This document shows positions 1 to 60,371 of a stretch of 64,000 nt of DNA, one piece after another (position 1 is the first letter of the stretch; every line of letters starts with the position of its first letter). This DNA is from Polytrichum commune. Lineage: Eukaryota; Streptophyta; Polytrichopsida; Polytrichales; Polytrichaceae. Location: the NCBI GenBank assembly GCA_950295325.1, contig OX485806.1, forward strand, positions 3,410,001-3,474,000, given 5' to 3'. The position numbers and the translations under genes are program-made. The notes beneath the pieces are model-generated. The model was not told the DNA's origin, did not search any database, and saw only the letters and a list, made by a program, of their open reading frames with translations.

Positions 1-1
1 C

Positions 2-3000
2 TTTGGGCAACTTGTGGGTTGTTAGAAATTCCACTATGCCCGCATACCACGCCGGTGTAGAAGTGACCACAAAGAGGCTATCATCTACTAACATATCATT
101 TACCGGATTTTTTCCTATCTCCTCCGACAACCTAGACAAGTGGTCCGCTTGTAAATGCATACGACCCGGTTTATATTCCACCGTGTAGTTGAATTCTTCT
201 AATAACAAAACCCACCTAGCTAACCTACCACTTAACTCCGCCTTGTTAATTAGATACTTGATAGCCATGTGGTCAACAAAAAATACAACCGGGTTGCACA
301 TGAGGTAATGCCTAAACTTTTTAACGGAAAACACCATGGCTAGGCACTCCCTCTCCGTTGTAGAGTAGTTTCTTTCGGCGGGGGTCAATTGCTTACTCGC
401 ATAAGCTATAGGTTGATCCTTCTCTTTTTCTCCCGTTGCTTGACAAAGCGCACTCCCTATTGCCACATTACTAGCATCACAATAGACGTGAAAAGGTTTA
501 CCCCAATTGGGTGGTATCAACACCGGATAGGTGCTCAACCTATCCCGCAATTCCTCAAAGGCTTTTTGACAAGCATCCGTCCACTCGAATTTGACATCCT
601 TTTTGAGCAAATGGGTAATGGGCACCGCTATCTTTGAAAAATTAGGAATAAGTTCCCGGTACCATCCCACATGTCCTAACAACTTAGAGATCCCCTTGGA
701 ATTGGTTGGAGTTGCCAAGTCGCTTATGGCCGCAATCTTATCCGGATCGGGTTCTCTACCTTTCTCACTAACAACATAACCCAACAACACTCCCTTATTC
801 ACTCCCAAAAATGTCTTATCCGGGTTCAATGCTAACCTCATCTTCCTACACCTAACCAATGCCTCCCTAACACAATGTAGGTGATCATCCACATTACTTT
901 GTGTGCTAAAATCGTCCACAAAGACGGTCATGGATTTGAACAACAAGTCGGTGAAGATATACATTACTAATCGTTGGAAAGTAGCCGGGGCATTACATAA
1001 CCCAAATGGCATCACTACCCACACAAAAGTACCCCAAGGTGTAGTAAAAGCCGTTTTATGGATATCTTGGAGGGCTATGGAAATTTGATTATAACCCGCA
1101 TACCCATCCATAAAGGTATATCGCGAATGACCTCCAACCTCCTCAAGCAACAAGGTGATAAAAGGTAAGGGGAAGTGATCCTTTTGTGTGCACGAATTCA
1201 ATTTCCTATAGTCGACACAAACCCTTAATTTCCCATTTTTTTTCTTTACTAAGACCATAGGAGAAACCCAATCCGTGATTTCCACCGGCTTGATAAACCC
1301 GGCCTTCAATAACCTTTCCAATTCCGCTTTCACCAACAATTGCAATTGAGGATTCATCCTCCTCTCCTTTTGTCTAATTGGCCTCGCCCCCGGAATTAAA
1401 GGAATCCGGTGCTCTACCATTTCCCTAGGAATTCCCTTAAGCTCATCGTAGGACCATGCAAAAGTATCACTAAACTCATCCACCAAATTGCTATACTCCC
1501 TAACCTCTTTCTCCCCCAATTTGGAGCCCATCTTCATTTGTCGGGTTTTTCCATTCTTTAATTTCACATCCACGTACCGCCAATCCGCTTCCGACACATG
1601 TGCTTGTTCCTCTTTGTTCCGATACCAATCGGAAGGCATATTAGGGTAATCTTTCACATCTTGACCTACAACTATCCCCGTAGACGTGGTCTTGAAATGT
1701 AAAGGCTCCTCCAATTTCGATGACTCAATAATCACATCCTCCTCTTGAGTCCCATCTACATGAATTAAACTAACCTCACCCTCTTCCACGTCATCTACCC
1801 AAGGTGTTAACCCACCGCTAACCCACTCTTCCTCGGTGAGCACCTCACATGGCTCCAACAATGAGCCCTCTCCTAAACTAACACTAGGAAATTCACTCCC
1901 TAAGCCTACTTGGTGAAATGTAACCATTACATCAACCTCGGACTCGGGGTACTCCCTTAGCCATTGGGCATAATCCCCATTATCCCCATAATTGTAAAAA
2001 TTAGGACCTAGACTTCCCGAGCCCGAATCTATAACAACCCTTTGACCTTCGGGATGGACGACTCCCACCAATGCCTTGCCAATCTCATTCTCGTTTAAGT
2101 CATCAATTTCCTTCTCCAATGGCAAATACATCTCCTTCTTCATCCATCCTTCTAATGAACCAATGGACACTATGACCCTATTACCCTCCGGACCATAAGT
2201 GATGGATGGTTTAGGTCCACCCCAATTGACCATAGCATTCGCCATCCGCAACCAAGGCCTACCTAGCAAAATGGGGAAGGTGTCCTTGTTGGAGTGCATT
2301 TTAATGACATGGAAGGTGACCAAGTACTCCTCACCTCCCGTAGTCATTCTACAATCCTTGATCATCCCCAAAGGCGTAGTCGAACTTTGATTTGCCATAT
2401 TTATGACCAAAGGTGAAGGCCCCGTGAGTCCAAGTCCCAATTTTTTCATAGTATCCTCCGGTAGTATGTTTAGACTACTCCCTCCGTCGACTAGCACATT
2501 AGGAACCACCTTATCTACTATAACAACTTCTATTTCTATAGCTTTCACGTCTCTTCCACCTTGTGATTGGATCCTAGCGGCTATTTTAGCTTTCACCTTC
2601 CTCATCCTCTTGTGTACCGGCATTCCCTCCTTTAATGTTTTCCTTGCCGTGGGTGAAATTTCCAATAGTTGGCCGAAAGTAATATCCGCCTTGAGTGTAC
2701 TAAGGTCCGCCCACAAGTCGTACCCGGTAGATCTTTCCACCTTAGAATTACCCACTACGTCGAATTCGTCTACGGGAACCCCCGGTCCTTCCCATTCACC
2801 CACATCGCTATTATCCAAGTCATGTACCGCATTAGTCCTCTCCCTATCTTGTAAAATTATATTTTCCCTCTCCACATCCTTAGTAGCTCTTCTAGCTACC
2901 CTATCCAACTCGGAGAGATTAATCTCTTCATCCGAAGAGTAATTTCCTTGCTCTCCTATTCCTACCTCCAACGGGGCATCCCCTCTCCTAGCCCTAGTAG

Positions 3001-4225
3001 TTACCGCTAGTGCAGGTGCTTCTTCAACCACACCCTTACCCTTCACTAACTCATATGTAATAGCATTGGTGTGAGGAGGCCATTGACTTTGCTCCTCTCC
3101 AATTCTCGTTGGGAGAGGAAGCATGTCATCACATGTGGCCTCCAACACTCCATCCATGAACCTAACATCTTGGGAGTTAGATGGTCCCGGATCCGTTGGA
3201 GGCGCTTGTCTCCCGTTACTACCATTAGGTGGAACTCCTTGTCTATTTTGTATTGGAATGTAACCGGTTGTAGTTTGCAAGCCCGCCGGTGGATGAAAAG
3301 TTTGCCTAGCATTACTATGGTCATAGTATAAGTTAGGTGGCCTAAGTTCATTGGCCGGTACTCCTTGTGGCCTAGCACCTCGCATATTATCCCTTGCTTG
3401 TTGTTGTGGATTAGCCACCGGGTAAGGGACATTAATTATTTTGTCCGGTTGGCGACACGTATCCGAGGGATGACTTCCTCCACAATTGCTACAATTAAAC
3501 TCTTGACCTTCGGACCAACATTGTCCTTGAGCGTGCCACCTTCCACAAAAGGGATGAAATTCCTTCTTCTCTAAATTTTGGCCACCTTGCCCTCTAGGTT
3601 GTGGTCCTCTATTGCTTCCATTTCCATAGTGAGGTGGCGCTTGACCTCGTTGATTTTGTTGAGGTGGGTTACCGTTTCCTCTTTGGTCACGGTTTTGTCC
3701 ACTTCTACAAAATTGACGCGTGTGGCCCGGTTGGCCACATTGGACACACCATAATCCGGAAGAATGCCTACCCGACTCAACCGGGGGTGGAGGCCCCGGT
3801 TGTTGACTCCGGATCATTAATGACATTTGATCCGTGAGGCTTTGCATTTGTTTTATCATAGCCTCTTGGAATCCTAGTTGGCTAGCACCTAGTCTTCTCT
3901 CAACCTCCTCCAAGTGTGGATCCGTTCTAGGGGCCGGTAGTGCCAAAAGAGGTGCCGGTTCCCTAACCGCTAAAGGTCGGGGACCGGTGTCCACAATGGC
4001 ATATGGAATTTGGTTCTCATACTTAGCGGGTTCTACCGCTACCACCCTAGGGCGTATGGGGATGAATTGTGGGATCAATTCATCCTCCCTTCTCCATAGC
4101 CTTTCGTGATCTTTATCCAAGTTTTCAATATCTCTAGCCGCACGCTTGGCATCCGCCAAGGTCAAGGGATTCCTTTCTAGAACACCCCTAATAGTTCCGG
4201 ACTTAAAAAACCCTTGAATGAAAAA
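2..4225 (-). pseudogene. gag-pol: Ty3/gypsy gag C-terminus, protease, reverse transcriptase and RNase H (partial)
   Basis: This continues the gag frame after the stop and I see no further stop to the window edge. In order on the minus strand: a proline-rich gag tail, a zinc knuckle CVQCGQPGHTRQFC (about 3750-3708), a second CCHC cluster (CSNCGGSHPSDTC, near 3500-3460), then a retropepsin with LVDGGSSLN (about 2494-2468). RT motifs follow: VCVDYRKLN (~1228-1202), YAGYNQI (~1100), PFGLCNAPATFQR (~1010) and FVDDF (~922-908). RNase H ends it: 'YCDASN', 'NYSTTERECLAMV', 'VDHMAIKYL', 'SGRLARWVLLLEEF' and 'ADHLSRL' (~600-130). The protease has DGGS in place of the usual D-S/T-G, and RT has FVDD in place of YVDD; both variants occur in plant Ty3 elements. 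No gag/pol frameshift is needed. Integrase lies outside the window. Confidence 0.85.
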
Positions 4226-5041
4226 TTACTTTAGCGTGTCGTCGTTGAGCATGGTACCCACAAATCTAGTGCACACTAAATCAAACCTCCTAATGTAAGC
4301 CGAAATTTCTTCCTCCCTTCCTTGCTTCAATGACGACAATGCCCTTAATGCGGTACTTTGACCCACTTCCGGCCTAAATTCGTTAAGAAACTCCCTTTGT
4401 AATTGTTCCCATCCCCTAAAATGTCCCTCGGCATGATCCCGATACCATTCATAGGCTTCCCCCTCTAGAGTGGTAGGAAACCACACTAACCAATAACCCG
4501 GGTCGGTTATGAGGAAGCTAGCCAACCGTTCGATATACCGTTCCATGTGCCGAGAGGGGTCCTCATCCTTGGTCCCATAAAATTTAGGGAGATGAGATGG
4601 CATATCCATCGCCGCTAAATTTTGTGGAACCACAATTGGTAGGCCTCTTGGCCTAACCAATGGGTCTATTGGAGGTATAGGAGGTATGGGCGGAATTGGG
4701 GGTATGGGTGGTGGATCCATCCCCCGTTCCTCGGCCATGGTGACCGGTGAACTATTCAACAATCCCCTATCAACTTCTACCGGGAATTCTTCTCTAAGTG
4801 TGTAATTTTCCGAAGAAGTTTCACCACTCAATTTGGAGGGAGTGATCTCCTCTTCAAGTTGAGCTCCAAGTTCTAAGGTGTTTAGAATTGACCTAGTCCT
4901 AGGTTCGACGTTCAAACAACTCTCTATTCTAACATTATCTTGTTCTAATCTATCACTGATTTTAGAGGACCGCCTCTTTCGAGTAGATTTCTCTAGTCCT
5001 ACTATCAAACTTGGTTTTTGTGAGCGAGTCCTACCTTGCAT
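4226..5041 (-). CDS. gag: Ty3/gypsy gag, N-terminal part (ends at a premature TAA)
   Basis: This 271-residue ORF starts at an ATG at 5041. It has a charged N-terminus, a proline/isoleucine repeat (IPPIPPIPP, around residue 115), then a typical retrotransposon gag core: 'GTKDEDPSRHMERY', 'EGEAYEWY', 'LQREFLNEF' and 'LKQGREEEISAYIRRF'. In the family this core forms the capsid that packages element RNA. The frame ends in TAA at 4226-4228, exactly where gag proteins of this class continue with a 'FFIQGF'-like segment. That segment is present immediately downstream in the same frame, so the stop is a nonsense mutation or a leaky stop rather than the natural gag end. The start was chosen because it is the first ATG of the frame and directly follows the leader. 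Confidence 0.85.
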   Translation of the reverse strand: MQGRTRSQKPSLIVGLEKSTRKRRSSKISDRLEQDNVRIESCLNVEPRTRSILNTLELGAQLEEEITPSKLSGETSSENYTLREEFPVEVDRGLLNSSPVTMAEERGMDPPPIPPIPPIPPIPPIDPLVRPRGLPIVVPQNLAAMDMPSHLPKFYGTKDEDPSRHMERYIERLASFLITDPGYWLVWFPTTLEGEAYEWYRDHAEGHFRGWEQLQREFLNEFRPEVGQSTALRALSSLKQGREEEISAYIRRFDLVCTRFVGTMLNDDTLK

Positions 5042-5929
5042 TCCATAAGAATCGATCGACCCTCACTTGACCACACATAATCCTAGCAATTCCCCTCTTA
5101 ATATTTTCACTTGTCTTGGTGTGGTTATAATTTTTTTAGGAGGTGAGGAAAAGAACCTGCAAGCCCACTTAGGTGAAAGAATCCCAATAGGGGATAGGCA
5201 TGTTCATGTTAATTTTTTGGTTAAGTCGGAGCATCACCTCCGCACCTTCCCGCAAATTAACACTCACCACAATACCGATTGTGAGGGGGTGACCTTCCGA
5301 GTAGATTATGTTAAAAGTCGAGGCTTCACCCTTCAACTTCTCACACCATCCACAATTCGGGAATTACCCTCTACAACGGATAACAACAATCACGAGTACA
5401 AAAGGCATTCCTTAATTAGTTAATGAGTTCACTTTGAAGAAATAAACATACCTTGAGCAATCGCATCCCCCTGTGAGTTAGCACTCCCCTCAATCGTGAC
5501 TCAATGTAACAACACCATAAACTTTGTGAAATATTAATTTAATCTAGAGCATGAAATGACAACTCCCAAAACTTTGAGACTCACCCCGGGGTGAGTGTCA
5601 AAGTTCAATGTCCTAAGATGAATTTACCCTCTAATGTTTTAATGAGCTACTCGGTTATAGGTTCCTTTTAAGTTCTTAGCAAATCCCCAAAAAGGTTGAG
5701 GACGTACCTTCGCCGCGCTCCTTCCTCAAAAATGAATTTGCGTAATTGACAATGCAATTCATTCCAAGGAATAGTTGAAATACAATGAATTCAAATGTAA
5801 CCCAAAGAGAGAATACTTACCGAGTTTCGGGTGCTCCTTCCCTTCTCTCAAGTTTGTGTCTCCAATTTTTCCTAGTTGCCTCCAAGTCTCCCAGTCGCCT
5901 CCAAGTCTTGTAACTACCTTCCGCTTCGC
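5042..5929 (-). other. Ty3/gypsy untranslated leader between PBS and gag
   Basis: About 0.9 kb between the candidate primer-binding site and the gag ATG. On the plus strand it is rich in short direct runs ending in 'CACC/CCTC' and shows several short open frames in both directions, none with a recognisable protein. I read it as the 5' leader where dimerisation and packaging signals normally sit. No feature beyond its position supports this. Confidence 0.55.
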
Positions 5930-5946
5930 TCCCGGCGGACGCACCA
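5930..5946 (-). promoter_or_regulatory. Candidate tRNA primer-binding site
   Basis: Read on the minus strand, the sequence TGGTGCGTCCGCCGGGA starts four bases after the LTR end. It begins TGG, complementary to a tRNA 3' CCA, and continues as a GC-rich tract like the 3' half of a tRNA. It is not the initiator-Met PBS (TGGTATCAGAG) common in plant elements. The tRNA identity cannot be settled here. Confidence 0.6.
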
Positions 5947-6635
5947 ATTATGTGAGGCCAAACCCCCCACCCTTAAGCGTCCGTAGTCCGAGTAGTGGGT
6001 TTGGGCTCACATTCCTCCGCGGTATTGGATTTGGACTTGGATGAGTCCATAGTGCAAGGTTCACCCTTCAAGTGGTCTTGGATTTAACTGGAATTTCACT
6101 TTTAACAACTCAATGTACGATTTCAATACGTATGTGGAGAATGCACAAGTTAACTATGTTATTTTAACCTCCTTATGCTCGGGTGCTATTTTGTCTTTGT
6201 TTGCTTCTAACGTCCATCCGGCTGCTTTAGCTACACAAGCCCTTAAGGATATCCCTCTCCTAAATGGAGTCCGTGCCGTTGACTCTATACTACCACTTGA
6301 ACTATCACTTGTGTATTCCGTATCGCTACTATAAGAGGTCTCACTTGGTGTCTCCATACCGTACATAAGCCTTTAAGTATTAATAAATACTTATGTGACT
6401 TATGTCAATCTCTCCCTCGCACCTTTGGTCTTTGCTTCCTTTGTCTTGCCATCGCGAGAGTGCTCCACATTCTCCATTAAGTTGTGCACGTGGTTTATTT
6501 TTAAAGAGAGGATGCAAGTGTTAAAAAAACACTATTCTCTATAGTCAATCTCAAATACATTTACTTGTGAAAGCCACACATAACACTAACTAGTATAATG
6601 TAACTAACTACTTGTCTATGAGCTAATTGGGTAGG

Positions 6636-6890
6636 CTATCTACTAAGCTCCTTCATGAACCCATCTCTTTACTTTCTAATTACATAAACCTAGCTCCTTC
6701 ATAAACCCAGCTTCTTAGCTTCTAACTAAACAAACCCAGCTCCTTCATAAACCCAGCTCCTTCATGAACCCAGCTCCTTAGCTTCTAACTAAACAAACCC
6801 AGGTCCTTCATAAACCCAGCTCTTTACTTTCTAACTAAACAAACCCAGCTCCTTCATAAACCCAGCTCCTTCATGAACCCACAACTTTGT
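6636..6890. repeat. Tandem repeat inside the LTR
   Basis: Irregular copies of 'CCCAGCTCCTTCATAAACC', with spacer 'TTAGCTTCTAACTAAACAAA' or a variant, recur about seven times. Unit length alternates between about 20 and 46 bases. It looks like LTR-internal minisatellite expansion. Confidence 0.75.
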
Positions 6891-7389
6891 AGTTGTAATC
6901 CCCAACTACCTCACTAATTATTCAAGCCCTTAACTAATCTTCCTACCTAATTTCCCTAATTCTACTAACAACCCCTTTCTAATCACACAATTCTTCTCTA
7001 ATCCTAAAATCCTAAAATCCTAGAGAGGAGAGGGGGAGAGAGAATTTCCTAACTTCACTAAGACTAACTAATCCACACAAGTATATTTTTGCACTCATCA
7101 CAACATCAAGTGCTCAACTCTTAAACATGGAACTTGCAACCACGTGTATTCAAAACATGAACTTTAAGTACCACAAATTGGAATCATGAATTAACTTTAA
7201 AATCCTTCACGTCAACACTAATTCTACCAAGAGGTCAAGCCCTCTTCAAGGCCAACAAGCCTTGGCTCTCAAACTAAAAACTAAGCACACACATGTGCTC
7301 CAATATGGCTTCCCACACCCACACTTATAACTCGTGGGGTGCCTTGGAGCACAAAGGAAAGAGAGGATGAATGAGGGAAGAATGAGGGA

Positions 7390-7397
7390 TTATATAG
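7390..7397 (-). promoter_or_regulatory. Candidate TATA box of the LTR promoter
   Basis: The minus strand reads CTATATAAT here, followed by a T/C-rich tract. It lies inside the LTR roughly 0.7 kb from its 5' end. A U3/R boundary at this point is plausible but rests on this motif alone. Confidence 0.4.
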
Positions 7398-8097
7398 TAA
7401 GCTTGAGGGGGTGAGCACCCTCAAGGCTCACGATAAGCCCTTGAGATTTCCTCCTACTTAGTAGGCGCCAATCCTATCTTCTAAGCCTCCCTCCCTCAAA
7501 TGATCAACAAGGATCCTAATTCGAACATTTAACTGGCCTTGGCTTTCTACCTACCACACTTTACCAAACTTGGGATGCTTCAACCCAAACTTAGCCTCCT
7601 TCGCTTTCCGCCGCCATAACTTTCTCCCCTTACTTTCCCAAATCGTCGCTCACCACTTAATTCAAACCACGATGCTTAACTCGTGATTTGATTGGTGCTT
7701 TGAGAATTTGCTTATCCTCCACCTTGCATTCTTCCTTGGGCCTTCCCCATTAAGTGGCCATGATGAGGTGGTCCACTTGTGCGCTCCATGTGATCCTCCA
7801 TTCATCCCAATTCGAATGCACTTGCCTCTTGAGTCACTTTGGTTGTCTCCATCCATTTGTACTAGCCTACTCACTAACTACTCAATCCAAGTTCTCCTTA
7901 CCTATCCTCATTCACTCAAATCCTTCCGAAGGTAAAAACACAATAACAACTCACATCCTAGCCTCTTACAACATGGTACTTCTAAGACTAACATTTCACT
8001 CTTTTTATATTTTTGTGAAGTAACATGCTACTTCAAAGTGCATCAACTAACGTTTCAAGGGTCTAAGACTAAATGTGGGCACCCTTTTGGGCTCACA

Positions 8098-8517
8098 CCG
8101 ACTCACTCCGAAGGCTCCAACACCGAACGCGCTGGCCTGGCAGTCTCCCCAACGACGCCCCCACAAATTCGACCCACTGCAGCAACACCGACGCGGACCT
8201 GCACAACACCAACACAACTGCTAAGTCGACAGATACACCAACACTACCCCCGGAGCAGCAAGACCACAACAATCGACCCCCAACACCGAAACCACCAACC
8301 CAGGCCGCCACACGAGACTCTACCACAAGCAATTCAGCAACCAGCAACACCATCACGACGGCATCCACAATCAAGGACCCACTACATCAACACCCACAAC
8401 AATCCCAGCTCCAGACATCACACTGACACGCTCCCACCCCACCCAACACCGGCTCACGATCAACACCGCAACATCCCTGCTAAAGAAGGTAACCCCCGGC
8501 TCTAGTACCTGATTTCC
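8098..8517 (+). other. LINE 5' leader
   Basis: C/A-rich leader upstream of ORF1. It is open in the ORF1 frame (from 8038, which reaches into the LTR) until TAG at 8503-8505, twelve bases before the ORF1 ATG. The encoded stretch is only Pro/Thr/His/Gln low complexity. I treat it as untranslated, though an N-terminally longer ORF1 with one stop cannot be excluded. Confidence 0.5.
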
Positions 8518-10644
8518 ATGGAACACACTAATCAGTCTTCAGGTACCAAACAGGCGGCTACACTCAACGCCCAGTACAACGATTTCCGCCAGCAAGTCGT
8601 CTCACAGCCGCCAATCCCCAACACGTCCCAGCTTTCGAATCACGCCCCGCACCCACATCAACATCATGAATGCGACGCCGAGGAAGACCTTGACATGGAC
8701 GCACAACTCGAAGATGTGTCCCCAGAACGAGGTGGGAGTTCGCTCCAATTGACATACGACCGCTCCTCACACCAAGCCACACACGCACTACCCAACAACT
8801 CCTCACTCCACATTGAAAGCACGCCCCCAACACTCCAATACCGCAACCCCCGAATTGAAGATGTCTCGGAGAGCCAATCCACCAAAAGAAGGAAGGCCGA
8901 CGACTACACCGCCACCTCCGCGCCCGACATCTCGCACAAACCCACACCAACACCGCCAAGTTCGAGAGCAAAGAGGATGGCCACCCTAAGCATCGACATG
9001 ACCGGGCACATGTGGCTCGGGTTTCAAATGCATGAGACACTAGCCATATTACGTGGAAAGAAAGAGTTGAAGGAGAAGCGCACCGACGAAGAGTTTGCCA
9101 ACATTGGCACACCCGCCAATGAGATACAAGAATTTCGCTCACTACGAAGAGCATTCCCAAGAACCAAGCAATTCCTATACCCCAACGAACGTCCGGATGC
9201 GGTTACCGGGCAACATCTACACTTCACCCAAATCCCTATGTACGAGAAGATATCACAAGACACGGGCCTCACCGAGGGATTCCATGTTACCATCCGTTTT
9301 GACGGAGAATACAAGAAGCTCAACCGGAAGGAAGTCAAAACCGCATGCATAGAACGACTCCGGCTCATGAATATGCCATTAGGTACCACCTACTCCAACC
9401 CGATCGACATCGGCATCAACACGGTGACAAGGAATTGGAGCGGATTTGTCAAAATTCACCTTCAATTCCCAATGAGAGATGGACTAGCACTACTCCGTGG
9501 AGAGAGAGCCTTCGTCATGACAATGGGAGACGGAGAAAGGCTCATTGGAAAAGTGGAGAAAGGCTTTGAACTCATCACCAAGGCAAAGAACATGAGGTTA
9601 CACCTTAAGGGTGAAGCTCTCCGCAACCACACGGCATTGGACATACTCCGAAACCTCATGAAGGATTTCTACTACGACGGGCGCGAAGTGGAAATCCTTT
9701 CCCTCACCAAGTCGGAATCGGAGAGGGATTTCGCCTTCATCACCCTCACTACCGAGGAAGCAAGAAATGACATCCTCACCAACGGGCTCACTTTCCACGC
9801 CGAAAAGCTTAAGGTGAGCATCACAAAGGACAAAACCATGAGCAACCCTTCGGAGTTAAGAATTAGTACCACCCTTGTGGCTAATAACTTACCTCAACGC
9901 GAGTCTCAATCGTCGATCACCAACACTCTCAAGAAGCTATTTGGAGAGGAGAACATCACCGGCGTCACCTTCGGACACAAGACCAACCTCGATGATGATA
10001 GACAAGCCGGTTGGTGCCACGTCCAATGTCTTAATGCGGCGGTTTACACGGAGTGGCTACATAAGTCCGCATACATCCTCGGAAGGCGAGTAGACTTCGT
10101 GCCACACAAAGGGAGTATAGACGGCACCGCACCAAACCAAACCGCCATCCGACTCGCACAAGCCCCCGTACGCGAGGTCATAGCTCAAAAAGCCCAAGCA
10201 ATGCACAACACCGCCGCATCCGCCCCACTAGTCTCGGAGAAACTCTTCACCAAAGCGATGAAGGAACTTGCCGAGACAATGGACGACAAACTCACCACGC
10301 TCACACACAACATCAACCTCAATACGGATTTACGCATAGAGGCTTCCACGGACACCCTCAAGTCCCATGCAACCAACATACACAACATAATGAGTGCCAT
10401 GGCCATGGAGTTTCAACAATCGAACAATCGCATGCACAACATAATGCAAACCTTGGCCGCCACTTCACTGGACCCCCCACACACCAACATGGCAAGACTC
10501 CCATCCGCTCCAAGCACTTCCCTCACCAACACACACGCGGGCGACATCAACATACCACAACAAGCTCCACCGGGTTTCCATAGCGCTCACTTTAGGAACT
10601 CCCCAACAAGTCTCCACAAAGGCCAATACCCTCCTCATGAATAG
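8518..10644 (+). CDS. LINE ORF1 protein with RRM-like domains and C-terminal helices
   Basis: An intact 708-residue ORF. The N-terminal ~160 residues are Ser/Pro/His-rich and disordered-looking, with a basic 'TKRRKADD' nuclear-signal-like patch. Three stretches then read like beta-alpha-beta RNA-binding folds: about 245-325 (FHVTIRFDG ... GFVKIHLQF), 361-435 (LHLKGEAL ... FAFITLTTEEA) and 445-545 (TLVANNLP as RNP2-like, AGWCHVQCLN as RNP1-like). Residues ~580-660 are helical and may coil. LINE ORF1 proteins typically coat their own RNA, and RRM-type ORF1s are common in plant and algal LINEs. I see no CCHC knuckle. The stop overlaps the ORF2 ATG (ATGAATAG). G content is normal here, unlike ORF2. 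The RRM assignment is by pattern only. Confidence 0.75.
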   Translation: MEHTNQSSGTKQAATLNAQYNDFRQQVVSQPPIPNTSQLSNHAPHPHQHHECDAEEDLDMDAQLEDVSPERGGSSLQLTYDRSSHQATHALPNNSSLHIESTPPTLQYRNPRIEDVSESQSTKRRKADDYTATSAPDISHKPTPTPPSSRAKRMATLSIDMTGHMWLGFQMHETLAILRGKKELKEKRTDEEFANIGTPANEIQEFRSLRRAFPRTKQFLYPNERPDAVTGQHLHFTQIPMYEKISQDTGLTEGFHVTIRFDGEYKKLNRKEVKTACIERLRLMNMPLGTTYSNPIDIGINTVTRNWSGFVKIHLQFPMRDGLALLRGERAFVMTMGDGERLIGKVEKGFELITKAKNMRLHLKGEALRNHTALDILRNLMKDFYYDGREVEILSLTKSESERDFAFITLTTEEARNDILTNGLTFHAEKLKVSITKDKTMSNPSELRISTTLVANNLPQRESQSSITNTLKKLFGEENITGVTFGHKTNLDDDRQAGWCHVQCLNAAVYTEWLHKSAYILGRRVDFVPHKGSIDGTAPNQTAIRLAQAPVREVIAQKAQAMHNTAASAPLVSEKLFTKAMKELAETMDDKLTTLTHNINLNTDLRIEASTDTLKSHATNIHNIMSAMAMEFQQSNNRMHNIMQTLAATSLDPPHTNMARLPSAPSTSLTNTHAGDINIPQQAPPGFHSAHFRNSPTSLHKGQYPPHE

Positions 10645-11110: not shown

Positions 11111-12077
11111 TACCCCAAGACACCAAGCTCCTACACCACACTTCTACACCAACTTCCACCTCATACACAAAACATACTTACATACCCCAAGTCAAACTAG
11201 CCACAAAAGAGGTACCTCGCATACATATACCACATATAAGCACACCCACAACGCATATACTATCTACCACAATACACCCCCACTAATCGCCCTAATCAAC
11301 ACGTTAACCCACATTGGCAACATATATTACATAACACACACATACCAAAAAACTCCAAAACTTAAAAACATACAATACTACACCTGGAACAACTCCACAC
11401 TCATCCTTCAACATGGAGACATTGAACTAAATCCAGGTCCGCTATCAACCATCCTCAACAATCTCCCCCAAGCATACACACTCAGACAAAAACATTATTT
11501 CATACCAAACACACTATCGCTCAAACCTAAATACACACACCTAGGACAAATATTCGAACCTTACATAAACCCAAGCACACTCAACCCCCCACCACAAAAC
11601 CTACCACATCTACAACAACACCTCTCACTACTCTCACAATATCCCACACAACACCACATATATGCACTAATCATAGCCTATAGTCCCATACCTCAAACAT
11701 GCAACCAACAAATGACCCAAAATTTAGACCCAAGATACCTAACCATACTAAGAAGACTCCACTCCCTCCCAGAAAGAGCACCAACAAACACCATAACACA
11801 AGCCTACCCCAATATTAACGACAACACAATTGCACATGCATACTCCCACATTAATAACAACATTGCTAGAGGCAAAGAAACAAACCTACATGACATAAAA
11901 ACGAAACTACCTTACATACCCTGGAAAATTCTCGAAGAACTCACCAAGTGCACCCAACCAATACGGGGATACCACCCACACACCCAAACCACCAACACCA
12001 ACCACACACCACAAACTAATACGACTCCACACGACCAACAAATAACGACACTGAAGGTAATCACATGGAACACATGA
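11111..12077 (+). pseudogene. LINE ORF2: linker carrying a 2A-like motif, up to the APE start
   Basis: An open stretch in frame with the downstream APE ORF. It carries GDIELNPGP at 11415-11441, then about 200 residues of His/Thr/Asn-rich sequence, and reaches the first APE motif ITWNT at about 12060-12074. It stops at TGA 12075-12077. The downstream ORF (12114-13364) is in the same frame, so the TGA is a single nonsense codon inside the endonuclease N-terminus, probably from a TGG by one G-to-A change. The first in-frame ATG is at 11712, well after the 2A motif, so normal translation should enter from the 10637 start. Confidence 0.65.
11415..11441 (+). other. 2A-type ribosome-skipping motif (GDIELNPGP)
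   Basis: In-frame codons encode G-D-I-E-L-N-P-G-P, an exact fit to the D-[V/I]-E-x-N-P-G-P consensus, preceded by a hydrophobic 'STLILQH' stretch as usual in 2A peptides. 2A sequences make the ribosome skip the last Gly-Pro bond and release the upstream peptide. They are known from RNA viruses, trypanosome LINEs and some animal LINEs. Here it would separate the hydrophobic N-terminal part of ORF2 from the endonuclease-RT polyprotein. Confidence 0.85.
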
Positions 12078-12113
12078 TGTATAAGCTCTAGCCTCCCTGG
12101 TATCCAAGAACTT

Positions 12114-13364
12114 ATGCAAACCCTACCCACAGACCCACACATCATACTCATACAAGAAACCAAAATTCAAAAACTAAAATCCACAACATACATTGATAGA
12201 AAATTACAAAGCTACAAAATCATTTACAACAACTCCAACAACCTAACCAACAAACAAAATCGATTTACCGGACCTACCACGACAAGAGGAGGCATACTCG
12301 CAATGATACCTAAAATCATATACACAAACGAAAACATTACCAAAATACCCACCCCTAGCCTCATATCACACTACTTACAAGCCATCCTTATCAATAACAA
12401 ACCCATCACACCAATACTCCTCCTAAATATGTATATGCCGCCACATCCGCACGACATACATCTTATACAAAATATCCAAAATGAACTCCGAACTCTAACC
12501 ACCCGCCACCACAACCATCACATCATCCTAGCAGGAGACTTTAACCGAGATATACTATTCAAAGGAAGATCATCCAACGGCCAAATCTCCCCCCCTAACC
12601 AAGAAGACTACGAATGGGCCCACTTCACAAGCACCCTCGGACTCCACCCGATAAACAACCAAGCACAACTTACAAGACAAGGGGGCCACAATTATACATC
12701 AACTAGCCACATAGATGGCTTCTATTCAAACCACAACAACACACAATGTCACACCATACTAAACATTAACCAAAACTCCGACCATTACCCGGTACAACTC
12801 CAACTACCCGCTAATAGCATTGCCCTTAAAGAAACAACCATCCCTCCCACCAACCCCCGTATCATATACCCCATACCCCCCACTAACTTCCAAAACCTAC
12901 AAACAACCTTCCTAGAAGAACAAAACCTAGAAATAGACAACCTCACTAAACTGCTACACCAGGAACGACTCACATATACTCAATGGGAAGACGCACAAAA
13001 TAAATTCCAAAACATTATAAACTCTCTCAGCCGATGTATTGAAAAAATGTGCATGACACCACCCACACCTCCACTCACCACTAGAGCGAAAATCCAAGGA
13101 GGATTTCTACCCCGAAAACAACAAAAATTATGGAAACACCACCTTAAAATATATCACGGAGCGCGCAAAGCTATTCGAGCTGCCTGCCAACATCCCCATA
13201 CCCATCTCCAACACCACCCCAACATTAGATCCCTGACACTAATAAACAACCTAGACATCCCCCCTCTCCCTACAAACCCCACAGAGCATACACAATGGAT
13301 AGAGGAAATAGCTAACATAGGAGGGAAAGAAAAAACCGAAGCACACAAAATAATAGTCAAATAG
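12114..13364 (+). pseudogene. LINE ORF2: APE-type endonuclease domain
   Basis: With the short piece upstream of the TGA, this gives a full apurinic-endonuclease-like fold: ITWN (~12060), LIQETK (~12150), NMYMPP (~12430), AGDFNRD (~12531-12551), IDGFY (~12711) and NSDHYP (~12774-12791). These correspond to the catalytic Asn, Glu, Asp-Asn and Ser-Asp-His residues that nick target DNA for target-primed reverse transcription. The remaining ~190 residues are the linker to RT. The frame ends at TAG 13362-13364. The linker continues one frame over (e.g. 'NRNHKYRALFNIKPK' from about 13380), so a frameshift lies near 13330-13360. Confidence 0.85.
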
Positions 13365-13379
13365 ACCACAATCAACTAC

Positions 13380-13998
13380 AAAACCGCAATCACAAATATA
13401 GAGCATTATTCAACATAAAACCCAAAACTATACACAAAAAGATATTTCACCCAACAATCGAAAGTTCCCTAGATTGCATACAAAATTCCAATGGAGACAT
13501 CCTAACTAAGCCCCCAGATATAGCCAACGAAATATATTACACACAACAAGCATCTTTCCAGAGACAAGCCCCACTATGCAGCGACATCACAAATCACCCA
13601 AGCACATGTCAATGCGCAATCCGTAAATACCCTTGGCACACACACAACGGCATAATACTAGACAAAAGAGGCCCCATAACACATCCATAAGCACCCAATT
13701 TACAAGGGCAATCTACGACAACTGCGTCAAAAGATTAACTAGAGGCAAAGCCCCCGGCCCTGACAACATCCCCAACGACATACTTAAGCCACTACCATTA
13801 CAATGTCAAGACCTCATTTTCCTATTTTTTCAACATTGCTACAAACAAAGGGAAATCCCAACCTACTGGAAACAAAGTAAAACCATCCTACTCCATAAGA
13901 AAGACAACCCTATACACCTCGCCAATTATAGACCGATAGCACTAGCCAATACTATATACAAGTTATATACTAGCACCATAACAGCTCTCCTCAGTTGA
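13380..13998 (+). pseudogene. LINE ORF2: reverse transcriptase N-terminal part
   Basis: From 13380 to 13690 the linker reads in frame 2, ending at TAA 13688-13690. From about 13690 the RT continues in frame 1 (ORF 13633-13998) with KRLTRGKAPGPDNIPND (~13727-13780), WKQSKTILLHKKD (~13867) and NYRPIALANTIYKLY (~13923-13967), which are RT motifs 0 to 2. It stops at TGA 13996-13998. The next codons in frame 2 are already past the palm motif A, so about 80 residues with the first catalytic aspartate are missing. This points to an internal deletion at about 13993. Confidence 0.8.
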
Positions 13999-16369
13999 AA
14001 TAGTCGGCAACATATACAAAGATTCCACCACCTCTTTCACAGGTAACCACTTCGGCACAACACCCCCGATAACAATTAGCCGGGGCACCATACAAGGGGA
14101 TACACTTAGCCCATACCTATTCATAATATTCCTAGAACCATTGCTCAGATGATTAGAAAAAGATGACATGGGTTATCACTTTACTACATCCACCGCCACC
14201 TGCACCACTACCGCCTACGCCGACGACCTCGCAATCATCACCGACAATATCAAATACATCCAACCACAAATACTTAAACTACAAAAATTCGCCGAATGGT
14301 CATATATGGACCTCAATCTCTCCAAATGCGCCATTACGGGATGCCCTAATAAATCAAAACTTAAACTAAACACCTTCAAAGCCTACATACAATCACAAAA
14401 CATCACCTACAAAGGAAAAAATCTCCCCACCCTCACACAAAATGAATCATACGCATACCTAGGCATCCAACTAATACCATCCCTCAAATGGAACCTCCAA
14501 AAAGAAATTACACTCCAAAAGGCCAAACAACAATGCACACTACTAACTCTCTCCCCAGCCAGTCTTAAACAAAAAATTAACATCCTAAACACGGTCATAA
14601 AACCTCGCATAGCCTACGTATACTACGCAGTCCCTTTCTCCAAACCCGATATCATAAAACTAGATAAAGTCATAGGTAGACTAACCAAAGAAATCTGCAA
14701 CATACCCAAAAGCACGGCCAATATCTTAACTCACCTCCCCCATGAAAACTTTGGCATAAATGTAACCTCCCTCCTACCTGATTATATACACTGCATAGGT
14801 CAACAACTCATCCAAGCCCTTAACGACCCCGGCCAACTAGGACACATATACCAAGGCCTAACCAAATACATAGTAGCCAAATACAGAGGCTCGCTACACC
14901 TCTCTAAACTCAAACAACAAGCATGCACAAGATCTCCCATAGCAAGAACCCTCTTCCTACTGAATAAAGAATATGAGATCCACGTCACCACAACAAATCG
15001 CGGATTCCCCCTCAAGAAAACCCCCATAGAACAAATGTGGATAACCCAACAAACATACGCCAACCTCACAGACGCTTCCAAAATAAAATCACATAAATAT
15101 CTAGCCAAACTATACACACACGGAATAACAACAATAACGCAAATTCAAAATAAAGAAACCACGGCCATCCTAACCTCGGATGAATTCCGGGCCATTTATA
15201 ACCATACGTCCAAAACCATAGAAGAAGCACTACAACACGCCTCCACAATATTTCCACCAACAATACCATCCACACAACACTTAAACCACACCCAACAAAC
15301 ACAACCAACACACACAAGCATAACACACACCCCCAACCCTCCCCCACAACCCACCCTAGGACGAACAATTCACAGAATAACCCAAGAAAAAACCTCCACT
15401 ATAAAAGACAAATGGGGAGCACAAGCCATCACAAAGCAATACTTATGCCAATGGCAAACCTCACATGGAACCACACTACAATGGCGAAAAGATGAGGACC
15501 TCCTACATCCGGACAACATACTACTAGACCACAATCTATTACTCATCACACAATTCCAAAATGCAACAATGGAACTCCAAGCCACTCAAAGATATGCCAC
15601 CCACACCACACACACCCAATCAAGAGACAAAAAATACATACATCCCCCCATCCACATCACCAACCTACAAACCAACATACAAGAATGCAATCCGGACAAA
15701 GACATCCTTAGTACCAAACCTACCATACAAATACACAACCTAGAATCCAACATACATGACCATAATGGTAAATACATAGCCACAATTACCACGGAAAGAC
15801 TACATTGGTTATGGAACCAATTCATCCACAACAACCAACCCCACATAACCAACTTCCTACAACCGCCCCCACAAGACTTCGAAACCGAAATAGTATGGCT
15901 TATGCAAAGATACATATCCATACTCCCTAAGAAGAAACCAAAAGTCATACAACCCAAAAACCAACACCAAACGCTACACCCGGACATCACTAAACTACTC
16001 ATAGAGACATTCCACATCACACACTCATACTACTCATCCCCACTCACCTGTCCTATCCAACTCACACAATACAACTCACCACACACCCGAGACATAATAT
16101 TTGGCTCACTAGGACATGCCCAATCCTCTAAATGGAATGGTATAGGCCTAGCATTCCCCACAGACCATAACACAACGATCGAAGCCATACACTGGGCTAG
16201 AATGGCGGCCAAAGAAGACACACAAACAAGTACCATATTAATAATAAATCACGATGATTGGACACCAAAGAGCATCACACTTAACAAACACCCAGACATA
16301 CACACAATAGTAACCATCCCACCACATAGCATCCACTATAACCCCACGCCCGAATGGCCCAAATATTAG
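13994..16369 (+). pseudogene. LINE ORF2: RT palm and thumb, linker, and most of the PCIF1-like domain
   Basis: In frame 2 from 13994. It starts with a short strand-turn region, then RT motif B 'GTIQGDTLSPYLF' (14084-14122), a nonsense TGA at 14150-14152, and the catalytic YADDLAI (14216-14236). Next come motif D/thumb sequences (AYLGIQ, KPRIAYVYY), a ~450-residue linker with Thr/His-rich low complexity, and the methyltransferase-like domain (about 15960-16450). The first ATG after the TGA is 14168, giving a 733-residue reading frame to TAG 16367-16369. After that TAG the same frame stays open through RNase H, so it is a single nonsense codon, again one G-to-A step from TGG. Confidence 0.8.
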
Positions 16370-16450
16370 CAATACACAGAACCATCCCTCACGTCCATCA
16401 TATATATACATAATCAAACAACACTCACAACCACCCCACATATTACACAA
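15960..16450 (+). other. PCIF1-like (Rossmann methyltransferase-type) domain within LINE ORF2
   Basis: Between RT and RNase H the protein reads SSPLTCP (~16035), YNSPHTRD, FGSLG (16100-16114), KWNGIGLAFPTD (to 16165), ILIINHDDW (~16240-16262) and IPPHSIHY ... IIYIHNQ. The order and spacing match the PCIF1 family of cap-adjacent adenosine N6-methyltransferases (ASPL, FGS.G, G.F.ANPPF, vF.PeW, then Y...N), and similar modules occur in algal retroelements. The catalytic NPPF-equivalent reads FPTD at 16154-16165, so this copy probably could not bind substrate normally. TAG 16367-16369 also cuts its last strand. Assigned by motif register, not by search. Confidence 0.55.
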
Positions 16451-18088
16451 GAACTAGCAAACATACTAAAAAGAATAACATCCATAAATATTGACATACA
16501 CCCTATTAAACCTACCCACATACAATACAACGTTAAACTCTCAAACAAGTGGAAAAACGCCCCCCAGGTAAAAATCCTCCCCTCCCCTAACACCACCCCC
16601 ACACCCCTACCTCCCACATACCACCACATTTACCCCCTCAAATTTGACCCATTATCATGCATATACACAGATGGCTCATTCATCCCGCCATCCAAAAATT
16701 TTGTGGGACAAATAGTGGGCAATCTCGCAGGGTCGGGAGTGTATAGCCCCAACAACAACACCCAAATCTCAGAAAGACTACCCGGATATCAAAACATCCT
16801 AAGAGCCGAACTAAATGCAATCCTCATAGCTATAAAAACCATCCAAACTACCCAAAGAGACACACACATATTTACAGATAGTCTTAATAGCATATACTTA
16901 ATCAATAACCACATACAACACCCAACATCCCAACACCACCACCCCGACAAACTACTCATCGCTGCCATTATCAACCAAATATACTGGACCCCACAAATGA
17001 TCTACATACACAAGGTAAGAGCGCACACAGGCATTAGCGGAAATGAAATGGCGGATACACTAGCAAATGCAGGAACACAACAAAACAAACCCGACATCAC
17101 ACCAAGAATACACATAGCCCGCACTACCCCATATTGGCTAGCAAGTTGCCCAACCGGCACACACGACGGAGCAATCCGTAACCTCCGCACATTCATAACA
17201 AAAGCACATGAAAGTCAAGAATCCGCATCAGCCAACCAAAAATACTTATACGTCAACAAATGGCTATCAAACGAACAAATAAACCAAAAATTGTCAAATC
17301 ACTTCTGGAAAAGCAAGCAGATCCCCGACACACAAATTACCCAAACCCTCAAATTTAGATATGCACAATACATGGGCAACCATAGAAAACATATATTTTG
17401 GCCTCTCCAATACCCAAATCCTAACTGCACACTATGCCAAAGAAATGACAGAGACACATGGCCCCACCTACTATCAACATGCGAACACCCCTATTTAAAA
17501 GGGCTTAGAATCTCAAGACATAACAAAGTTGTCCATTTGATCACACAAACACTACAAGCCAACAAAAATACCAGATTCTTTACACTGGCCAATGCTGGTA
17601 ACCTCAACAACCAACCGCCAGACAACACGGTACCCGATTGGCTCCTAGCATGCACATGCCCGCAAACGCCATGCCGCTGGCAAGCCAAACTAAGACCTGA
17701 CATAACGTGCATTATAGGAGCCCACAACCAATCACCAACACCGATGCTACCCTCCCCTAAACATACAATCCAATTCATCGAATTTACATACTGCCATGAC
17801 AGATTTCCTGAAGAAGCACTCACCCATAAACACACTAAATATGACCCACTCATCAACACCATACAAAACAACGGATGGAAAGTCAACCCTCTAATCACCA
17901 TCACAGCTGGAGTAAGAGGTGCTATCCACGAACATTCCATGGAAAAGCTAACCAACCTAAAAATCCCAAAACACAACATTAAAACCCTCATGAAGAAAAT
18001 ACATGAAAATGCCATCAAATATCTCACATACCTCATCCTAAACAAAAGAAAACTCGATAACAAACAAACCCCTGTCCCCCCACCCTAA
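16370..18088 (+). pseudogene. LINE ORF2: RNase H, CCHC finger and restriction-like endonuclease
   Basis: Same frame as the upstream segment after the TAG; the first ATG is 16703 (461 residues). RNase HI: YTDGSF (~16664-16681), RAELNAI (~16804), FTDSLNS (~16870) and HTGISGNEMADTLAN (~17025-17070), i.e. the D-E-D-D/H set that removes RNA from the hybrid. Zinc finger: C-x2-C-x9-H-x4-C in CTLCQRNDRDTWPHLLSTC (~17426-17482), followed by RHNKV. Endonuclease: LRPDI (~17690), FIEFTYCHD (~17774-17800), KHTKYDPLINTI (~17828) and GWKVNPLITITAGVRG (~17874-17920). This is the RPD ... E-x-T ... K-x2-KY pattern of the PD-(D/E)xK enzyme of R2, NeSL and Dualen LINEs. The frame ends naturally at TAA 18086-18088. 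Confidence 0.85.
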
Positions 18089-18128
18089 CTAAACTTAATT
18101 AATATAATATAATATAATGTGATAACAA

Positions 18129-18233
18129 GAGCCCACCTCCCAAAAGAGGCATAACGCCCTATATTGCATCACGGGATACCGTGATCAATACAGGGCTAAC
18201 GGGCTCGCATTCATGCCGGTATACAATACCAGC
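18129..18233 (+). other. Structured 3' tail of the LINE RNA
   Basis: Forty bases after ORF2 the sequence folds into a compact branched structure. An outer stem GAGCCC (18129-18134) pairs with GGGCTC (18201-18206). It encloses a small CCTC/GAGG hairpin (18136-18149) and a long hairpin: 18156-18166 with 18186-18196 (10 of 11 pairs), then 18168-18174 with 18179-18185 (7 of 7), GATA loop. A further hairpin (18215-18221 with 18227-18233, 6 of 7) follows. LINE reverse transcriptases often recognise a 3' structure of their own RNA, which is the likely role. No known ribozyme core recognised. Confidence 0.65.
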
Positions 18234-18240
18234 GTTATTT

Positions 18241-19987
18241 TTCTTTCTTCTATGGTGGACAACTAGCGACCATGTCAAATTCTTGACGTATTTTTCAAGT
18301 AAAGTGGTAGTGCACTAACTTTTGATAAATAAGGTTTCTTGTGGCCTTGGATTTGGACATTTTTCTTTTGTTGTTGGAAATTCAAGTACATTGTACACTA
18401 CATAATATCACACTTGTGGCAACCAAAGTGCACGTGGTGTTAATGACTTGAGTAGTGTCAACATGAATGGGTGATAAAAGAGAATTAATGTAGCATGTGA
18501 CATTATGGAATAACACAAAGTTGGCATGCAACAATGAAAACATGATGCGTGTGAGCATGTGAACATTTGAATTTTTGATGGTTTATTTCAATGTCGAAAC
18601 TCATGATATATGGGAGGGAAACTATGAGCCCAAAATGGTTGCTCATATTTGTTTTATGTTAGAATTTACTTAGAATTGCATTTGAGGTCATTATTGAAAC
18701 ATCAAAAAGTATAAAAAGAGTGAGGCTTGGTGTGGATTTATGTTTTAGGCCTTAGGCTTATTTTGTGTGGTTAATTAAAGGCTTAGTGGCATTAGTAGTT
18801 GTTTTGGTTAAATGAGGGTTGTGTGATGAGGCAAGGGGAAGGGCCTTGGGTTTAAACGTTTGATTTAGGACATGTTCGTGTTGGTTTAGGGGGTGAGGGT
18901 TTAGTGGATAGGATAAGGTCCTACTTAGTAGGAGAGGGTTTAAGGGGTTTGTGGTCTTGGGTGCCCTCTCTCTCTCTTTCTCTCCTCTCCCTCTTCCCTC
19001 TCTCCCTATCGCTTCGAAGTAGTTGGCCGAAGACCAATGTCAGAATTGAATGTGGCTGGCCGAAGGCCTGAATCTGGTTAGAGGCAGCTAGTATGAAAGC
19101 TTGAATCTAGTTCGAGGGCAGCTGGTGAAAACCAATGTGAGAATTGAATGTGGTTGGCCGAAGGCCTAAATTTGGTTCGAGGCAGCTAGTCTGAAGGCCT
19201 GAATCTAGTTTCGGAGGCAGCTGGGCTAAAGGCATGAATCTGGTGCGAGGCAGCTGGTATGAAGGCCTGAATCTAGTTCGAGGCAGCTGGTATGAAAGCC
19301 TGAATCTAGTTCGAGGGCAGCTGGTGAAGACCAATGTGAGAATTGAATGTGGCTGGCCGAAGGCCTGAATCTGGTTAGAGGCAGCTGGTCTGAAGGCCTG
19401 AATCTAGTTTCGAGGGCAGCTGGGCTAAAGGCTTGAATCTGGTTTCGAGGGCAGTTGGGCCGAAGGCCTGAATCTGGTTCGAGGCAGTTGGTATGAAAGC
19501 CTGAATCTAGTTCGAGGCAGCTGGGCTAAAGGCTTGAATCTGGTTTCGAGGGCAGCTGGTGAAGACCAATGTGAGAATTGAAGGTGGCTGGCTAAGGGGT
19601 GAAACCAAAGTGGTATAGGGGGGAGGAACTAATAGTGTTCCACTAGCTTAAGTTTAGTTAGTAAATTAGTTATTACATAATATTAATTTAAGTAATTAGC
19701 TCATTAGCAAGTTAGATGGCCATGAGGAAATAGATGGTGGGGATTAGGGGGTGAAAGTTGATGTGAGTGATTGTGGGGTCGTGATAGGGAGTGTTAGGAT
19801 TGTGATAATATAGAAGAGCGTTTGTCAACGCTTGTATTCATGTCATGGAATAAATTGGTGTGCAAGAGTTGATGGGAAATGTAATGGATATTTACGAAGT
19901 TGGAAAGAGGGAGTTATGTGAACACAAATGTGATACCCATTCCCTCACCCGGACTAGGACGCATAAGGGTGGGTGGTTTGGCCTCAC
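18241..19987 (+). repeat. LTR relic related to the Ty3/gypsy LTR at 5951-8097
   Basis: The last ~60 bases (19925-19987), ending in GGTTTGGCCTCACA, match the inner end of the left LTR read on the opposite strand, including 'GGACTA.GACGC.TAAGGGTGGG'. A second shared block is 'CCTACTTAGTAGGA' near 18929 versus the left LTR near 7450. The relic lacks the left element's PBS after its end and I find no matching gag. Its start is unclear and it may have been cut by the LINE. It carries the 19015-19610 minisatellite. It has no convincing ORF. Confidence 0.6.
19015..19610. repeat. Minisatellite, ~40-bp units
   Basis: About 14 degenerate copies of a unit built from 'GAATCTGGTTCGAGGCAGCT' and 'GGTCTGAAGGCCT', with a longer variant containing 'GAAGACCAATGTGAGAATTGAA' at 19035, 19130, 19330 and 19560. 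The recurring long variant gives a higher-order pattern. One antisense frame is open through several units but has no protein character. Confidence 0.85.
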
Positions 19988-59915: not shown

Positions 59916-60371
59916 TTGGTGAACTTTGGGAGTTTTGTGTGGTGTGTAGTCATGCTTGAATGTTTGCTAATGATTTTGGTAGCCATGGAATCGCCTTGTG
60001 ATTGTGCCTATGTCAGTGAGGTCATGCTTGAATGTTTGCTAATGATTTTGGTAGCCATGGAATCGCCTTGTGATTGTGCCTATGTCAGTGAGGTCATGCT
60101 TGAATGTTTGCTAATGATTTTGGTAGCCATGGAATCGCCTTGTGATTGTGCCTATGTCAGTGAGGTCACGGGAGTCAGTCAAATGTGGGCGCTAAAGATT
60201 GCCTTGGGATGTTTGCGGCACTTAACTTGTTTTTGTGGTTTGCAAAGCCTCATGCTTCAACCCCAAAAGTGCAACCTTGGCATCCTTCACCCAAAAAATT
60301 ACCCCTTCAAGGACAAGAAACTAATCTTCGAGCTTGGGTCCAATCTTGAGTCCAAATGTGACACCCATTAA
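59916..60371 (+). CDS. ORF with three tandem 24-residue repeats, not recognised
   Basis: A 151-codon frame. Residues ~12-83 are three exact 24-residue copies (VMLECLLMILVAMESPCDCAYVSE), encoded by three identical 72-bp units at 59949-60164. The first part of each unit is hydrophobic enough for a membrane segment. The remaining ~68 residues show nothing recognisable. Identical units mean the duplication is recent. Because 72 is divisible by three the frame survives, which may be chance. There is no evidence of a promoter. Confidence 0.3.
   Translation: MVNFGSFVWCVVMLECLLMILVAMESPCDCAYVSEVMLECLLMILVAMESPCDCAYVSEVMLECLLMILVAMESPCDCAYVSEVTGVSQMWALKIALGCLRHLTCFCGLQSLMLQPQKCNLGILHPKNYPFKDKKLIFELGSNLESKCDTH
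59949..60164. repeat. 72-bp tandem triplication
   Basis: Three perfect copies starting at 59949, 60021 and 60093 (each starting GTCATGCTTGAATGTTTGC). Perfect identity indicates very recent expansion. Confidence 0.95.

Follow-up and report, generated by a model that had tools for sequence, protein, structure and literature searches.

The locus described here places a relative of the cap-specific N6,2'-O-dimethyladenosine (m6Am) methyltransferase PCIF1 (CAPAM) inside a long interspersed nuclear element (LINE) of the moss Polytrichum commune. In the portions of PMC10544176 available to us, the helical domain of PCIF1 binds the m7G cap, and mutants in which the catalytic NPPF motif is changed to APPA or SPPG (N553, F556) are the customary inactive forms. 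A catalytic-dead Pcif1 is retained in Drosophila, going by a title cited in PMC10544176 and PMC11588057, and excerpts of the latter report no m6Am signal in flies. An extract of PMC7824862 places small adenine methylases of jumbo phages closest to the PCIF1 clade, while in the accessible part of PMC8868631 PCIF1 is found in eukaryotes only and the words retrotransposon and transpos- are absent. Among retrotransposons, the Dualen group (Dualen/RandI) combines an apurinic/apyrimidinic endonuclease (APE) and a restriction-like endonuclease (RLE) in one element, and RNase H is also reported there, according to the available text of PMC4640811. We analyzed a 64,000-nucleotide stretch of P. commune DNA (the window; assembly GCA_950295325.1, contig OX485806.1, positions 3,410,001 to 3,474,000), which carries a single non-long terminal repeat (non-LTR) retrotransposon copy on the + strand at ~8.4-18.25 kb. 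At the sequence level, our comparisons confirmed that the reverse transcriptase (RT) and RNase H of this element are separated by a segment homologous to the methyltransferase domain (MTD) of PCIF1. Literature searches combining PCIF1 or PCIF1_WW with retrotransposons or RT, or concerning moss non-LTR methyltransferases, returned no title or abstract describing such an element, with an earlier mention being possible.

The earlier note on this DNA, which had been made from the sequence alone, proposed a PCIF1-like domain between RT and RNase H, and this was borne out by Pfam, by a 26-copy LINE profile set against PCIF1 entries of the Protein Data Bank (PDB), and by shuffled controls. Pfam PCIF1_WW gave a match. 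In the window it covered residues 573-659 (~15869-16129) with an E-value of 1.1e-6 and 28.8 bits, just missing the gathering score of 31.1. When domain pieces from other loci were scanned alone, PCIF1_WW matched L022 at 3.5e-14 (53.2 bits), L026 at 3.6e-13 (49.9 bits), and L001, a member of the window's family, at 1.2e-7 (32.0 bits); the Pfam model scored related places of the same genome at up to 55.6 bits. Because retroelement proteins might be among the sequences behind the Pfam model, a profile comparison independent of Pfam was made, using human and zebrafish PCIF1 fragments from PDB entries 6irv and 6irx (residues from about 288 on) as references. With the 26-copy profile, the zebrafish and human fragments ranked as the top two at 15.0 and 14.6 bits, compared to 9.1 bits for the best of 20,000 shuffles, and longer PCIF1 fragments scored 19.2 and 16.5 bits, compared to 5.6 for the best of 10,000 shuffles. 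Aligning this profile to PCIF1 with hhalign gave a score of 53.4 (probability 94%), with a maximum of 21.5 among 200 column-shuffled nulls. Family B, one of two deep groups of the element, was strong on its own (hhalign 49.5; HMMER 20.4 and 18.9 bits versus 8.2).

The alignments agreed on a single register, pairing SSPLTC of the LINE with ASPLNC of PCIF1, FGSLG with FGSRG, GIGLAFPTD with SGSFEANPPF, and DDW with PEW. Thus, like PCIF1, the LINE domain carries SPL[NT]C, FGS.G, and motif IV A-x-P in register. In the window these motifs lie on the + strand at 16034-16051 (SSPLTC), 16100-16114 (FGSLG), 16154-16165 (FPTD), and 16244-16261 (INHDDW), so the series of motifs that the note had read as following PCIF1 is present. 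The span of 15960-16450 given there for the domain was slightly off: the homology begins near 15878 and extends to ~16261 or slightly beyond, and a possible last strand at 16394-16417, downstream of an in-frame stop, was matched by eye only.

Several comparisons weigh against this assignment. Family A, to which the window copy belongs, was weak when used alone: hhalign gave 27.9 with a probability of 15%, and in HMMER a decoy (5.2 bits) ranked above the zebrafish fragment (5.0 bits). A search of profile A1 against the whole PDB at E<=1 returned no PCIF1, the single match being a ribosomal protein at 0.46. Single-sequence AlphaFold2 yielded no confident fold, with a mean predicted local distance difference test (pLDDT) score of 37.7. 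The marginal scores of the window's family and the A1 result, together with the strong A/C bias of the coding strand, are what one would cite for a likeness that arose by chance or from composition. Against this, none of six composition-matched controls (three reversed and three shuffled LINE pieces) matched PCIF1, and two of the six produced unrelated weak matches (E 0.17 and 0.29). The profile of all copies also placed PCIF1 above every one of the 20,000 and 10,000 decoys and the 200 hhalign nulls, and the Pfam match in family B reached 3.5e-14. Based on the shuffled and reversed controls and the decoy rankings, we rejected chance similarity, which we regard as very improbable.

The catalytic motif differs from that of PCIF1. 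The note had pointed out that this copy reads FPTD at the NPPF position and that a stop cuts the domain; both observations hold, with FPTD at 16154-16165 and TAG at 16367-16369. It had also advised that activity be judged on other copies, which we did by reading the catalytic position at 90 loci, taken from rankings by similarity either to the window or to the Pfam model. Twenty came from the protein search of the genome described below, 8 from the PF12237 search, 2 from the tblastn search with the zebrafish fragment, and the rest from further sets of 20 and 40. Some of these loci are near-identical; the count includes the window copy itself (L003) and leaves out L054 and L055, which are second fetches of L042 and L001. 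Neither NPPF nor any [DN]-P-P-[FYW] occurred at the catalytic position in any of the 90. The residues found there were HPHN (41 loci), FPTD (18), HPHT (16), HPNN (3), and HPPN (2), plus ten singletons, three of which were cut off or out of frame at this point. The first position was H in 68 loci, F in 21, and C in one, and the second was P in 86 of 90. The other loops were nearly invariant: SSP[LVI][TS]C was present in 89/90 loci, SSP[LVI]TC in 87/90, and FG[SA].G in 89/90. A separate count covering 46 of 48 loci also found no NPPF. A copy bearing NPPF would be expected to rank high with the Pfam model.

The idea that the element carries an m6A-writing domain, as the note suggested, is therefore not supported in the sampled copies, and with NPPF in 0/90 loci we set aside an active N6-methyladenosine (m6A) writer as the leading reading. 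No active N6-adenine methyltransferase is known to us that has HPxN or FPTD at this position. Given that substitutions at N553 and F556 serve as the standard dead versions of PCIF1, and that Drosophila retains a catalytic-dead Pcif1, we infer that the domain does not carry out N6-adenine methylation in the sampled copies, at least by a PCIF1-type active site. We also considered whether FPTD reflects decay of a single copy. This was rejected, since the replaced motif is found in long open frames too (L042, 2924 codons) and the domain is under selection.

The same counts bear on whether the MTD could still be an active methyltransferase with a rebuilt site, [HF]-P-x-[ND/T], acting on the element's own RNA or on another substrate. 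The replacement pattern is conserved in its own right and kept within families, which a rebuilt active site would also fit, and purifying selection on the domain and conservation of the SSP[LVI]TC (87/90) and FG[SA].G (89/90) loops point the same way. However, both the N and the F of NPPF are gone in 90/90 loci, and the changes to APPA and SPPG that usually serve to inactivate PCIF1 affect these two residues. On balance, we consider an active enzyme unlikely.

To place the window copy among its relatives, we drew on searches of the 408-Mb genome (64 contigs, seven of them 42-78 Mb long). The telomere repeat CCCTAAA stands at three of five contig starts inspected, the other two being N over the 240 bases covered, and a LEAFY fragment is closest to PDB 4bhk, the protein of the moss Physcomitrium (58 of 61 residues, E 1.9e-35), ahead of 2vy1 from Arabidopsis (E 3.3e-25), in agreement with a moss host. 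A protein search found at least 150 places (the best 150 of 2364 candidates, all E<=3e-76), and a PF12237 search likewise found at least 150 (the best 150 of 697 candidates, each exceeding the family cut-off), with open frames of up to 2924 codons among the matches listed. The PF12237 search was positive in none of 14 control genomes. The copies fall into two deep groups, A (the window's) and B, whose domains are 41-47% identical to the first alignment row. Pfam recovered the order RT, PCIF1, RNase H in L001, L054, and L055; in L020 and L022, whose pieces begin within or past the RT, PCIF1 was followed by RNase H. Because the MTD occupies the same place in both deep families read, it was probably captured before they diverged.

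A tblastn search with a 96-amino acid zebrafish fragment revealed no cellular PCIF1 gene in the genome, which is weak evidence that the host gene is missing, since exons may escape tblastn. At E<=10 there were 29 places, the best at 0.018; 17 of them coincide with PF12237 matches listed, the top two (L064 and L065) look like LINEs by eye, and the other 12 were not looked at. Scans of viral contigs with the zebrafish PCIF1 fragment and with A1 yielded no confirmed relative.

We next asked how the domain has evolved, using ratios of nonsynonymous to synonymous substitution (dN/dS) calculated by the Nei-Gojobori method with our own script for 13 chosen, non-independent pairs out of the 190 possible among 20 aligned loci. 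Of these, 11 gave a finite dN/dS for the MTD: the ten within-group values span 0.09-0.20, and the A-B pair, with its dS close to saturation, stands at 0.26; the other two pairs were saturated. The linker after the MTD gave 0.22-0.50 in the same ten within-group pairs and 1.03 in the A-B pair, so that in every one of the 11 finite pairs the MTD was under tighter constraint than the linker. The chromodomain-like region upstream ranged from 0.03 to 0.28 within groups, with 0.53 for the A-B pair. For RNase H, seven within-group pairs lay between 0.03 and 0.14 and the A-B pair at 0.33; of its other pairs, one reached 0.34 from just 33 codons at a truncated end, two were saturated, and two lacked data. 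Between groups, the single pair computed (L001/L042) shared 47% identity across the MTD and 44% across RNase H; the RT tail followed at 35%, the chromodomain-like region at 27%, and the linker at 22%. The MTD is under purifying selection, which indicates that it still matters to the element and is incompatible with a motif lost only through decay of this copy. Copies presumably diverge neutrally once inserted, so active lineages may be under tighter constraint than these values suggest.

The loss of the catalytic motif would also fit an MTD that is a pure structural spacer or scaffold joining RT and RNase H, with no ligand. The steady order of RT, PCIF1, and RNase H fits this role, as does the tighter constraint on RNase H than on the MTD in 6/6 within-group pairs with both values usable (e.g., 0.06 vs 0.13), a result that also counts against the model favored below. 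Nevertheless, the MTD is clearly tighter than the neighboring linker (11/11 finite pairs), and its SSPxTC and FGSxG loops are kept, so a ligand-free scaffold seems improbable to us.

We instead favor, with moderate confidence, a model in which the captured PCIF1 domain is retained as a pseudo-methyltransferase binding module rather than an m6A writer. ORF2 (the second open reading frame, ORF) of a Dualen-like LINE would have captured a PCIF1-family MTD between RT and RNase H; the captured MTD would then have lost the PCIF1 catalytic motif and become a pseudo-methyltransferase held by selection. In such a model, the MTD most likely serves as a binding module within the ribonucleoprotein of the element during target-primed reverse transcription. 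We conjecture that it binds RNA there, perhaps at the capped 5' end of the element transcript, with the 5' terminus in general or some other stretch of the template RNA as further candidate ligands. A more specific version, in which the MTD is a non-catalytic reader of the 5' end of the element's RNA and an H-P-H-N-type pocket accommodates the cap-proximal nucleotide but leaves it unmethylated, is tentative and somewhat doubtful. It is the helical domain that binds the cap in PCIF1, and the gap between the chromodomain-like part and the MTD is just ~300 nucleotides, which sits poorly with cap recognition of that kind. Pfam detected no WW domain, the N-terminal part of PCIF1 that binds the Pol II CTD, at E<=5 in the 2924- and 2422-amino acid ORFs.

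The binding-module model has a partial parallel in Drosophila, where a PCIF1 homologue is also retained without m6Am activity, as far as the cited titles and excerpts go; that protein, compared here by description, differs in being a free-standing host protein. The LINE domain differs from PCIF1 itself in lying within a retrotransposon polyprotein, in having NPPF replaced in 90/90 loci, mostly by [HF]-P-x-[ND/T], and in lacking a Pfam-detectable WW domain. The jumbo-phage methylases, likewise set beside it by description, are phage proteins and presumed active. If the MTD does read the 5' end, the element would possess a means of recognizing its template or checking that it is full-length, alongside a chromodomain-like module that directs where it inserts. 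Host factors that act on retrotransposon RNA are known to include RNA-modifying enzymes; an element-borne, conserved descendant without the catalytic motif, in two deep families, is unexpected and lets nature show which roles the PCIF1 fold can take on besides methylation. It is also relevant to template self-recognition by LINEs and to how dual-endonuclease LINEs acquired their modules.

The remaining parts of the window copy, all on the + strand, are in keeping with a LINE. ORF1 runs from stop to stop at 8506-10644 (712 amino acids), with a sole Pfam match at E 0.23, far under the cut-off. Near the start of ORF2, a 2A-like (ribosome-skipping) motif, HGDIELNPGP, was spotted by eye at 11412-11441; it resembles the 2A consensus, and would split a leader from the polyprotein by ribosome skipping. 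The family B counterpart, in L054 (ORF 401-9172), has a 2A-like GGDIKPNPGP near its ORF2 start. The part of ORF2 with the APE-type endonuclease lies at 12078-13364 (Pfam Exo_endo_phos_2 4.6e-10, Exo_endo_phos 5.1e-6). Beyond the window, the APE was detected in L055 (Pfam 1.1e-7 and 2.2e-6); in L054, Pfam reported none at E<=5, and the NCBIfam exonuclease III model gave 0.014.

The RT, at 13730-14470, is broken in this copy: RVT_1 matched its last part at 2.7e-6, and its start was set from DNA identity with L055 and by eye. In relatives, RVT_1 matched at 1.5e-29 and 3.6e-26. The YADD of the RT lies at 14216-14233, in an ORF (14153-16369) that carries both the RT end and the Pfam PCIF1_WW match. 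The RT is followed by the chromodomain-like module (15338-15574, with YLCQW at 15440-15454 and its span set by position relative to L001) and the MTD (15878-16417, the part past ~16261 matched by eye), which the in-frame TAG interrupts. RNase H is encoded at 16658-17077 in the ORF after the stop (Pfam RNase_H 2.2e-16). A C-terminal region resembling a zinc knuckle and RLE, as in R2, occupies 17078-18085, with RPDI from 17693 and IQFIEFTY at 17768-17791. ORF2 of the window copy is thus split over several frames, and its RT shows several frames plus a deletion relative to L055; in the RT region, each of the two copies is without a piece present in the other. The window copy and L055 are otherwise 98.7-99.2% identical in DNA, with ORF1 inside a 5.6-kb stretch at 98.7%, and the frames left open in L055 run to 596 and 2422 codons.

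In the 3' untranslated region (18089-18255), nested hairpins are predicted (-49.7 kcal/mol, a figure not set against shuffled sequence), and the 3' end is T-rich, with its final bases possibly belonging to the flank. The same hairpin and T-rich tail were found in 6/6 group A copies compared. The flanks beyond look unrelated by eye in these six, so no site specificity is apparent. A script found no exact repeats of at least 9 bases between the 3' flank and window positions 7500-9000. A tblastn search with three relatives detected one copy within the window at E<=1e-3.

The chromodomain-like module is found upstream of the MTD in both families A and B. Its 12-copy profile, searched against the PDB at E<=10, matched chromodomain proteins in 9 of 11 cases (E 0.046-0.55), with the other two matches at 0.48 and 2.7; Pfam Chromo gave 0.024 and 0.14, under the cut-off, in two of five copies and nothing in the other three. 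To our knowledge, no LINE with a chromodomain is known. A five-row profile of the C-terminus matched only 8gh6 and 8ibw in the PDB at E<=10 (E 0.39), which we take to be R2 of Bombyx (R2Bm). The matched region lies ahead of the RLE-like motif, RPD...E.T, which is presumably the restriction-like endonuclease motif and by eye resembles that of R2 and its kin, with no Pfam match above cut-off. In contrast to R2, no site specificity is apparent in the six copies compared, and R2 is not known to have an APE, RNase H, or PCIF1 domain. Taken together, the APE, chromodomain-like module, RLE-like C-terminus, and 2A-like motif suggest a resemblance to Dualen, making the element a possible candidate for a dual-endonuclease LINE in a land plant. 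It differs from Dualen/RandI in its weakly matched RLE part and in its PCIF1-like and chromodomain-like modules, which go unmentioned in the available text of PMC4640811.

Elsewhere in the window, three features were noted by eye. Degenerate repeats around CTGGTTCGAGGCAGCTGG lie at ~19020-19600, less than 1 kb beyond the 3' end of the LINE. Sequence with the look of a Ty3-type retrotransposon (FVDDF text at ~900-940, - strand) falls within positions 1-5000, and a unit with ATGACCTCACTGACATAGGCACAATC is present in three head-to-tail copies at ~59960-60180.
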